NCBI GenBank assembly: GCA_030537835.1
Contig: JAUNVB010000014.1
Coordinates: 1 to 42,641, forward strand
Reading direction: 5' to 3'
DNA length: 42,641 nt
Source: Andreesenia angusta
GTDB lineage: Bacteria > Bacillota > Clostridia > Tissierellales > Gottschalkiaceae
Part shown: positions 36,616 to 40,621 of the stretch, piece after piece
How positions within the stretch are numbered: the stretch's first letter is position 1
How the letters are laid out: each line of letters opens with the position of its first letter
The notes under the pieces: generated by a model
Databases searched by the model: none
What the model saw: only the letters and a program-made list of their open reading frames with translations
What the model was told of the DNA's origin: nothing
Made by a program: the position numbers and the translations under genes

Positions 36616-37310
36616 AGTGTAAAGATGTTGGATTTCATTACAATACAGAAAATTGGCTTTTTAGGAATGTTGATCTAAGGGTAGGAAAAGGAGAAATAGT
36701 AGGCATTATTGGATATAGCGGATGTGGTAAAACAAGCTTATCTAAGTTGCTAGCTGACTACTTAATTCCAAGCGAAGGAGAAATATTAATTGATGGGGAA
36801 AAACATAAAAAAGGTGAATTCAAAAAAGTACAGTTAATTTATCAACATCCAGAAAAAATAATGAATCCAAGATGGAAGATGAAAGAAATATTAAGTGAAA
36901 GTTATGAACCTGAGCAGAAAATTTTGGATAAATTTGGTATAAGAAACGAATGGTTTAATCGTTATCCGATAGAATTATCTGGTGGAGAAATGCAAAGGTT
37001 CTCAATTGTTAGATCGCTTAATCCTAAAACGGAATATTTAATAGCAGATGAGATGACAACTATGCTAGATGGATTAACTCAGGCCTTTATTTGGAAACAA
37101 TTATTAGAAATAGTAAAGACTAGGAATATTGGACTTATTATAATAAGTCATGAAAAAGATATAATAAAAAAATTATGTGATAGGTGTTATTATATGTCAG
37201 ATCAGAAAGTTGAAGAAATTAATATAGATTCTATTTATTTTATTAAAAAACAAAGCCCAAGAGTGTTTTTACACCCTTGGGTTTCTTTAATTAATAACAA
37301 AAAATTCTAA
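36606..37310 (+). CDS. NikE/CntF-like ABC transporter ATPase
   Basis: Encodes 234 residues. Walker A GYSGCGKT (about 38-45), Q-loop LIYQHPEKIMNPRW, signature LSGGEMQRFS, Walker B TEYLIADEMTTMLD, H-loop IISHE. It starts inside the previous gene behind CTGGAGG. The last 18 codons contain the operon's terminator hairpin (37256-37287), so the tail QSPRVFLHPWVSLINNKKF is probably an extension gained by losing an earlier stop. It is shorter than most family members and lacks the C-terminal oligopeptide-type extension. Confidence 0.88.
   Translation: MALECKDVGFHYNTENWLFRNVDLRVGKGEIVGIIGYSGCGKTSLSKLLADYLIPSEGEILIDGEKHKKGEFKKVQLIYQHPEKIMNPRWKMKEILSESYEPEQKILDKFGIRNEWFNRYPIELSGGEMQRFSIVRSLNPKTEYLIADEMTTMLDGLTQAFIWKQLLEIVKTRNIGLIIISHEKDIIKKLCDRCYYMSDQKVEEINIDSIYFIKKQSPRVFLHPWVSLINNKKF
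37256..37287 (+). terminator. Intrinsic terminator of the nickel/peptide ABC operon
   Basis: CCCAAG-GTGT pairs with ACAC-CTTGGG across TTTT, followed by TTTCTTT. It lies within the 3' end of the last coding region. Confidence 0.75.
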
Positions 37311-37359: not shown

Positions 37360-37379
37360 ATATGAGCAGATATTCATAT
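37360..37379. promoter_or_regulatory. SmtB/ArsR-type operator-like palindrome
   Basis: ATATGAGCAGATATTCATAT has ATATGA and TCATAT ends around eight bases, matching the 12-2-12 style sites of SmtB/CzrA/CadC metal sensors. It lies just after the expected transcription start and before the ribosome site of a metal-exporting ATPase. No ArsR-family gene is in the window. Confidence 0.55.
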
Positions 37380-37393
37380 AAGGAGTGAGAGAT

Positions 37394-39493
37394 ATGTTGA
37401 AAGTAGCTACAGTACAAGGAGTAACATGAGCTAGCTGTGCCGAGAAGATTCGTGTCGAAATCGAAAAATTAAGTGGTGTTAAATCAGCAGATATAAATCT
37501 ATTCAATCAAAAGCTTAAATTAACAATAGATGAGCATATAAATCAAGAGAATATATATAAGAGTATTCAGCAGATAGCGGATAAAATAGAACCGGGTTCT
37601 GTCTTCGTCTTTGATGATGATAAATCAGAAGCTACAGGAAATCAAGAGAACGATATAAAGAAGATTCTATACAGAATGATTATATCTGCAATTTTATTCG
37701 GAATGAGTTTTTTTGTAGATAAATCGAATAGTCTATATATAGGATTAATATTTATGGGCTACGTTATAATAGGAGGACCTATAGTATTAAATGCTGTAAA
37801 TAAAACTATGGATGGTCAATTCTTTGATGAAGAGTTCTTAATGACGATAGCTACATTTGCAGCTTTTTGTATAGGAGAGTATCAAGAGGCATTAGCGGTT
37901 ATGCTTTTTTATCAATTTGGAGAGCTATTACAGGAAAAAGCTGTAATGAGATCTAGAACATCATTAAAAGAATTAATAAATTTAAAAGCAGAATATGCTA
38001 ATTTAAAAATCGGAAATAGCTATAAAAAAGTAGATTCAGAAGAATTGAATATAGGAGATATAATATTAATTAAACCAGGAGAAAAAGTACCAGTAGATGG
38101 TAAGCTCTTAGAAGGAAATACTAGAATGAATACTTCAGCACTCACAGGAGAGTCAGTACCGATTAATATTTCTGAAGGAGAAGAGGTACTATCAGGCTAT
38201 TTGAACGAAACTAATGCAGTGGAGATGATTGTTGAAAAAGGGTTCAGAGATTCAGCAGTTGCAAAAATCTTAGATATGGTAGAAAATGCATCTTCTAAAA
38301 AAGCAAAAACTGAAAAATTTATAACTAAATTTTCAAGAGTCTATACACCAGCAGTAGTTATATTAGCAGCAGTTATAGCAGTACTAATGCCTATAATAAC
38401 AGGAGGAAGCTTTGGTGAATGGGTATATAAATCAGCGATATTCCTAGTAATATCTTGTCCTTGTGCATTAGTTATATCAGTCCCACTTGGATTCTTTGGT
38501 GGAATAGGGGCTTGTTCAAAGAGTGGAATTTTAGTAAAAGGTGGAAACTATTTAGAAGCACTTAGTGAGACAAAATACGTTGTCTTAGATAAAACGGGTA
38601 CACTTACAGAAGGAGTATTCAATGTACAAGAGATTTATCCAAATAATGGCTTTACAAAAGAAGAGATTTTAGAGTATTCAGCAATAGCAGAGAGTTATTC
38701 TAATCATCCGATAGCAATATCTATAGTCAATAAATATGGAAAAGAACCAGATCATAGTAGAGTAAAAGAACATGAAGAAATAGCAGGTCATGGAGTTATG
38801 ACAATAATTGATGGAAAGAAGATATTAGTCGGAAATAGAAAACTTTTAGAAAGAGAAAGAATAGAAATATCTGATGATATGATTATTTCAGGAACAGGAG
38901 TATTAGTAGCAATAGATAATATATATGCTGGAAGAATTACAATATCAGATGAAATAAAAACTGATGCAAAAATGGCAATAGATGAAATGAAGAAATTAGG
39001 TATAAAGCATATAAGAATGCTTACAGGAGATAATAAAGTAACAGCAGAAAAAGTTTCAAAAGAATTAGGAATAACAGAATACGATTACAATCTATTACCT
39101 AAGGATAAATTAGAAATATTTGAGAATATATTAGCGAATAAAAAAGAAGATGAAACAGTAGTATTCGTAGGAGATGGAATAAATGATGCTCCTACACTTG
39201 CAAGAGCAGATGTAGGTATAGCGATGGGAGGACTAGGCTCAGATGCAGCGATAGAAGTTTCAGATATAGTCATTGTGAACGATGAGCCAAGCAAAATTTC
39301 TAAAGGTATTTATATAGCTAAAAAAGTAAAGCGAATAGTATTACAGAATATAGCATTAGCACTCGGAATAAAGGCGATAGTTTTAATATTCGGGGTATTA
39401 GGTTATGCTACTATGTGGGAAGCAGTATTTTCCGATGTAGGAGTATCTGTATTAGCAGTTTTAAATTCAATGAGAGCATTGAGATTAAAATAG
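37394..39493 (+). CDS. Zn/Cd-type P1B ATPase with selenocysteine in its N-terminal metal-binding motif
   Basis: Encodes 699 residues if TGA at 37427-37429 is read as Sec. The ATG at 37394 follows AGGAGTGAGAGAT. The HMA domain begins MLKVATVQGVT-U-ASCAEKI, where other HMA domains have CxxC, and the frame continues without break (VEIEKLSGVKSADINLFNQK) into the ATPase. Core motifs: LTGESVP (actuator), SCPCALVISVPLGFFGG (about 355-371), DKTGTL (about 399), SNHPIAIS, TGDN, VGDGINDAP, and DVGVSVLAVLN in the last helix. The CPCALVIS and DVG motifs mark the Zn/Cd/Pb subgroup, which exports metal at the cost of ATP. A reading from 37676 would lose the whole HMA domain. A SECIS-like hairpin follows the TGA by 17 bases. 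Monocistronic. Confidence 0.85.
37447..37462 (+). promoter_or_regulatory. Candidate bacterial SECIS hairpin
   Basis: GATTCG, loop TGT, CGAAATC form six pairs with one bulged A. The stem starts 17 bases after the TGA and the loop contains a G, matching the loose bSECIS rules (distance, short stem, G in the apical loop). Confidence 0.5.
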
Positions 39494-39615: not shown

Positions 39616-40314
39616 TTGAATAAAGAGATTAGAGAAGGAATAGATCATAGCATTCCTATAGCTTTAGGATATTTTCCAGTCTCTTTTACTTTTGGTCTAA
39701 TTGCAACTTCATCTGGATTAAATCCATTATTAGCATTTATAATATCTCTTACTAATTTCACATCTGCAGGCCAATTTGCTGGAATGAAGGTGATATTAGC
39801 CGGAGGAACATATATAGAGATGATAATAACTATATTTGTAATAAACTTAAGATATATGTTAATGAGTTTATCAATAAGTCAGAAAATAAAAGGATTCGAC
39901 CTTAAAGATAGATTATTCACTAGCTTCGGAATGACAGATGAGATATTTGCCGTTTCATCTATAGAAAAAGATGAGATAAGTAATAAGTATATGCAAGGAA
40001 TAATAACTCTTCCTTATATCAGCTGGGGATTAGGCACACTTTTAGGAGGATTAATTTCGGAAATATTGCCAATTGCATTGAAAAACGCTATGGGAATTGC
40101 ACTATATGGTATGTTTTTAGCCATAATAATACCAGTTGCTAAAAAGGATTTTAAAGTATTAGGAGTTATAATAATAGCAATTGCAATTAGTTGTGCTATA
40201 TACTATATTCCAATCTTCGAAATAATACCAGATGGTTGGGCAATTATAATTTCAACTATAATAGCATCGGCATTAGGAGCATTAATATTTCCAGAGGTGA
40301 ATTCTGATGAATAA
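39616..40314 (+). CDS. azlC: AzlC-family branched-chain amino-acid exporter, large subunit
   Basis: Encodes 232 residues from a TTG nine bases after AGAGGTG. AzlC features: SIPIALGYFPVSFTFGLIAT, TNFTSAGQFAGMKVILAGGT, INLRYMLMSLSISQKIKGFD and SFGMTDEIFAVSSIEKDEIS, with five to six membrane helices. With AzlD, whose gene overlaps by eight bases, it exports branched-chain amino acids and analogues such as azaleucine. A TATTTAGTA near 39586 is a plausible -10. No Lrp/AzlB regulator is adjacent. Confidence 0.92.
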   Translation: MNKEIREGIDHSIPIALGYFPVSFTFGLIATSSGLNPLLAFIISLTNFTSAGQFAGMKVILAGGTYIEMIITIFVINLRYMLMSLSISQKIKGFDLKDRLFTSFGMTDEIFAVSSIEKDEISNKYMQGIITLPYISWGLGTLLGGLISEILPIALKNAMGIALYGMFLAIIIPVAKKDFKVLGVIIIAIAISCAIYYIPIFEIIPDGWAIIISTIIASALGALIFPEVNSDE

Positions 40315-40621
40315 TATAGCAATATATTTGATAATAATGGCTATTGTAACTTATATGATAAGAGCAATTCCATTAGTTTTAATGCAAGGAAAGAATATAG
40401 AATCAAAGTTCTTAAAGAGATTTTTGGATTTTACTCCATATGCAGTTTTAGGAAGTATGACTTTTCCGTTTATATTTTATTCTACGGAAAATAAATTGAC
40501 AGGAATAATAGGAACAGTAATAGCAATAGTCCTATCATATTTAAATAAAGGACTTACTAAAGTTGCTGTCTATACTGTAATATTAATATATTTAATCGAT
40601 ATTATTATTGATATGATTTAG
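40307..40621 (+). CDS. azlD: AzlD-family branched-chain amino-acid exporter, small subunit
   Basis: Encodes 104 residues and four membrane helices. AzlD signature: MAIVTYMIRAIPLVLMQGKN, FLKRFLDFTPYAVLGSMTFP. The start lies within the end of azlC, behind AGAGGTGAATTCTG, so the two subunits are translationally coupled and made in similar amounts. It completes the two-component exporter. No terminator is obvious before nagB. Confidence 0.92.
   Translation: MNNIAIYLIIMAIVTYMIRAIPLVLMQGKNIESKFLKRFLDFTPYAVLGSMTFPFIFYSTENKLTGIIGTVIAIVLSYLNKGLTKVAVYTVILIYLIDIIIDMI

Follow-up and report, generated by a model that had tools for sequence, protein, structure and literature searches.

Within the window, by which is meant the whole stretch of 42,641 nucleotides of Andreesenia angusta DNA that was analysed (contig JAUNVB010000014.1), positions 37394-39493 of the forward strand form a single frame of 699 amino acids once TGA is read as selenocysteine (Sec, U), and the only TGA in it is codon 12. 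The N-terminus then reads MLKVATVQGVTUASCAEKIRVEIEKLSGV. As the initial annotation had proposed, the frame from ATG 37394 is unbroken except at this codon (37427-37429, forward strand), which falls on the first ligand position of the CxxC of an HMA metal-binding domain, in the motif GVT-U-ASCAEKI. The domain is reached only by readthrough of the TGA; it occupies residues 6-59 (37409-37570, forward strand) and is detected by Pfam above its cut-off (PF00403, 35.8 bits), and Pfam also detects PF00122 (E1-E2_ATPase) and PF00702 (Hydrolase) in the protein. The proposed identity as a Zn/Cd P1B ATPase was likewise borne out, as the protein exceeds the cut-offs of NCBIfam TIGR01525 (544.6 bits; cut-off 346.25) and of the cadmium-type model TIGR01512 (505.7 bits; cut-off 313.5), and it carries the P1B-2 (Zn/Cd/Pb-type) motifs, namely CPC in TM6, DKTGT, a Lys in TM7 and an Asp in TM8. 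Alignment to the zinc ATPase 4umv runs end to end (369.9 bits), with U standing opposite the first ligand Cys, and the transport site CPC in TM6 keeps its ordinary cysteines. ORF calling with table 11 places the start at 37676, in agreement with the expectation that automatic annotation would begin there. However, the sequence, read directly, shows no ribosome-binding site before ATG 37676, whereas a Shine-Dalgarno sequence, AAGGAG, lies at 37380-37385 on the forward strand, with AGGAG 8 nt 5' of ATG 37394.

The region upstream of ATG 37394 also holds a near-palindromic, operator-like element (ATATGAGCA-GATA-TTCATAT; 37360-37379, forward strand) that ends 14 nt before the start codon; as ATATGAGCAGATATTCATAT, it stands shortly 5' of the ATG, and elements of this type recur at the ATPase loci of relatives. 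The pattern ATATGA-N(2-14)-TTCATAT occurs once in the window and at 77 of the 150 loci examined, nearly all of these 77 being ATPase loci of relatives; taken alone, the element is only modestly unusual within the window. We take it to be a putative operator for a metal sensor of the ArsR/SmtB family. A search of the genome to which the window belongs (97.7% complete) detected no ArsR HTH_5 gene, and in G029, one of the relatives, two ArsR-family genes lie 5' of a Sec ATPase. Further upstream, at 37254-37289, an inverted repeat resembling a terminator (AGCCCAAGAGTG...CACCCTTGGG, then T-rich) was noted by eye, and it parts the upstream genes of a peptide/nickel-type ABC transporter from the ATPase. 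The next genes 3' of the ATPase are azlC and azlD (39616-40621, forward strand), identified by Pfam and also located by tblastn beside the ATPase of G001, a genome of the same genus.

The machinery for Sec decoding, which the initial annotation had named as the thing to look for, is present in full in the same genome. A tRNA-Sec was found at 72.2 bits, the weaker matches of the same search probably being other tRNAs, and selB, selA and selD, all above curated cut-offs, adjoin it in one stretch of contig C7. In-frame UGA codons occur in two grdB genes (STUGTC) and in selD (SGUAAK) and, as these are known Sec positions, UGA is read as Sec in this genome. The selD gene (L120:9355-10323, reverse strand, with its upstream extension) is itself a selenoprotein gene; about 33 nt from its UGA lies a strong hairpin with the loop GUU, and its automatic ORF start falls after the UGA. 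The two grdB copies (L149 and L150) each have an in-frame UGA and bear near-identical hairpins, CGUUGC-GGG/GGU-GCAACG.

TGA at the HMA codon is not confined to the window. It was found in ten ATPases of ten genomes in seven families, that is, in the window gene and nine others, and since the search pattern demands particular neighbouring residues, ten is a lower bound. Among 249 genomes of the same order, the TGA ATPases are those of G000, G029, G054, G131, G226, G228 and G229, and a sample of the class adds G354, G376 and G451; all ten genomes have a tRNA-Sec above the cut-off, G376 barely so (49.8 against 47). Many Cys forms of the ATPase also exist in the order, so that the homologous codon, which had been singled out for comparison, proved to be either TGA or TGY. 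With TAA or TAG in the place of TGA, the same pattern gave three matches in the 249 genomes and none in an ATPase, although this control is imperfect, as a Cys codon can become TGA by one base change but needs two to become TAA or TAG. Those three matches (L160-L162) are attributed to chance. TGA matches outside ATPases were discarded as well, 13 in the class sample (L133-L139, L142, L143 and L145-L148) and six in the order (L125, L126, L151, L153, L154 and L159), and a further match, L158, is an HMA lipoprotein.

The codons that follow the TGA are unusual at the RNA level. Codons 13-24 (37430-37465, forward strand) have the most atypical synonymous usage (z -4.5, with 0 of 10,716 windows as low), which is more extreme than in grdB (-2.2 and -3.0) or selD (-1.5) and appears to be a sign of RNA-level constraint. 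The minimum-energy local form is a SECIS-like hairpin 11 nt after the TGA (37441-37463, forward strand; -4.0 kcal/mol), for which an alternative upper stem, UUCG-UGU-CGAA, can be drawn at 37449-37459. Of six segments tried, the one at 12-42 nt from the UGA folds at -4.0 kcal/mol, where synonymous recodings of the same 10 codons average -0.2 and none of 500 is as stable. Among random 10-codon windows, a deviation of this size is seen in about 0.2-2%. Global folding of the wider region, however, gave nothing more stable than shuffled sequence. The hairpin that had been described 17 bases after the TGA does exist as GAUUCG-UGU-CGAAAUC (37447-37462), but it amounts to about 0 kcal/mol alone and -1.4 with its flanks, and it is weak by the consensus rule for bSECIS elements, which calls for a loop of 3-9 nt, with a G among its first two nucleotides, at 16-37 nt from the UGA (PMC13188914). 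By that rule the window gene reaches -0.4 kcal/mol, with 7.5-17% of recodings as good, which is no better than chance, whereas fewer than 1.5% of recodings do as well for grdB and selD; the minimum-energy hairpin of the window has its G at the third loop position. The same rule, applied to five other Sec ATPases, gives -2.9 to -7.9 kcal/mol for four of them and no hairpin for G376, while only 1 of 120 sites in Cys homologues reaches -4 kcal/mol. G029, G054 and G451 clearly fit the bSECIS consensus, the last with the hairpin CUCUCA-AGGU-UGAGAG, and five relatives share UGAGCNAAYUGUGCUUCUAGGAUAGAAG, in which a stem of at least 6 pairs carries a GGA loop 16 nt downstream of the UGA. The hairpin of the window gene thus seems to be small and constrained rather than a textbook bSECIS. 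Both the relatives and the other selenoproteins of the same genome have hairpins closer to the consensus, and for this gene the SECIS is the weakest part of the evidence.

A tree of the ATPase core was built from nine Sec and 37 Cys rows, G451 being the one Sec form that could not be placed. The Sec rows do not form one clade; four changes are needed, of which well-supported branches force at least three, and by this estimate Sec has replaced Cys several times, on at least three or four occasions. The window protein falls inside a Cys group, where its partner is the Cys form of G001 (support 99/97). Its branch is long and surrounded by Cys forms, so that its TGA is one base from an ancestral Cys codon. 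As azlC and azlD follow the ATPase in both genomes, the two ATPases are orthologs, and a lineage-specific switch from Cys to Sec therefore looks likely. The simplest reading of the tree and the gene order is a change in the lineage of the window after its split from the G001 ortholog. The HMA domain was further checked for random stops or other decay that would mark a pseudogene; no further stop and no divergence in excess of that predicted from the core was found, as its identity to G001 is 0.42 where 0.32 would be expected, with other comparisons near expectation. By these comparisons, the domain is evidently not decaying.

One alternative is that the TGA is a recent nonsense mutation, which would have cost the pump its HMA domain and left translation to start at ATG 37676. 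P1B ATPases are able to work without an HMA domain, the TGA differs by a single base from the codon for Cys in the syntenic ortholog, and both the long branch of the window gene and its weak consensus SECIS could be read in this way. Nevertheless, we consider a nonsense mutation improbable, as the domain is intact, the HMA codon is UGA and never TAA or TAG across the 249 genomes of the order, the extreme codon usage begins exactly after the TGA, and the ribosome-binding site and the operator-like element serve 37394 while nothing of the kind serves 37676. A true TGC or TGT misread in sequencing or assembly would likewise require only a single-base difference, and the assembly is a draft in 54 contigs; however, nine other genomes, all of them Sec decoders, show the same substitution at this codon, which together with the anomalous codon usage after the TGA makes an error highly improbable. 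It is just as improbable that the UGA is read as Trp or Cys, or that it is a regulatory stop that responds to selenium supply, the short form being the main product, since, even though Sec codons always compete with release and selenium-dependent readthrough is possible in principle, the Sec pathway is complete, grdB and selD have UGA at known Sec positions, and 37676 has no start signal.

Taken as a whole, the frame, the Sec machinery, the recurrent UGA, the conservation of the domain and the constraint on the codons that follow, all of them read from sequence, are best explained by a Zn/Cd/Pb-type P1B efflux ATPase in which Sec replaces the first Cys of the CxxC of a single N-terminal HMA domain (GVT-Sec-ASC), with the UGA decoded via tRNA-Sec and SelB, and we regard this as very probably correct. 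From this evidence we infer the insertion of Sec at residue 12 itself. In this model, UGA codon 12 would be decoded by tRNA-Sec together with SelB, RNA structure just 3' of the UGA may help the decoding, and the resulting selenolate/thiolate pair would bind an ion of a soft metal, whether Cd, Zn, Pb or Hg, within the cytosolic regulatory domain. The likely role would be chelation of such a metal through Se and S in that domain of the exporter, with possible effects on its metal affinity and redox behaviour of the kind that the initial annotation had put forward.

The window ATPase resembles Cys ATPases of the ZntA/CadA-type P1B-2 group (e.g., 4umv) in its end-to-end alignment, CPC, DKTGT, TM7 Lys and TM8 Asp, but differs in having Sec for Cys and, before the first ligand, Thr for Asp or Asn, and its T-U-x-x-C motif is closer to those of MerP and of Cu(I) HMA domains. 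Thr precedes Sec in the window, G029 and G054, while most Cys forms have Asp or Asn at this position; however, other Sec forms have Asp or Gly, and Thr is therefore not a rule. Sec in metal-binding motifs is common to the window ATPase and to MerP/MerT and other Hg-related predicted selenoproteins, although the ATPase is an exporter, unlike the mercury uptake proteins MerP and MerT, and no mer genes were seen beside it. In G029, an HMA lipoprotein (GFSUASC; L121:1049-1414, reverse strand) and a MerT-like protein (AICUVG; L121:1449-1760, reverse strand), the latter just below the Pfam cut-off, both have in-frame UGA codons; the distance to the Sec ATPase and to a second, all-Cys copy of the ATPase is about 6 kb. 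Together, the Thr before Sec and the presence of UGA genes of MerT-like and MerP-like type close to the pump of G029 suggest soft metals. It may be that Sec replaced a ligand Cys several times independently in the HMA domain of Zn/Cd pumps, with a MerP-like T-U-x-x-C, and so tunes the sensor domain to very soft metals (Hg, Cd) or gates it by redox, but we advance this combined scenario only tentatively and would sooner expect it to fail in some part than to hold in full.

The Sec form is an infrequent variant of a widespread pump, and a UxxC ZntA-type ATPase already appears in published lists of predicted selenoproteins (PMC13188914, PMC9312934), and the idea of Sec in such a pump is therefore not new; compared by description, the listed ATPase belongs to the same family (TIGR01525) and has the same UxxC motif, but comes from a different lineage. 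A literature search for Sec in ZntA or CadA returned nothing relevant beyond review tables. The present analysis contributes the number of members, the finding of repeated origins, a Cys ortholog from the same genus and evidence at the level of codons. Automatic annotation of Sec pumps of this type loses the N-terminal 94 residues. Most selenoproteins are redox enzymes. A transporter in which Sec serves as a metal ligand has rarely been considered and, in the literature found, is only predicted, and the syntenic pair of Cys and Sec pumps in one genus would allow a direct question to be put, namely what selenium does for metal binding.
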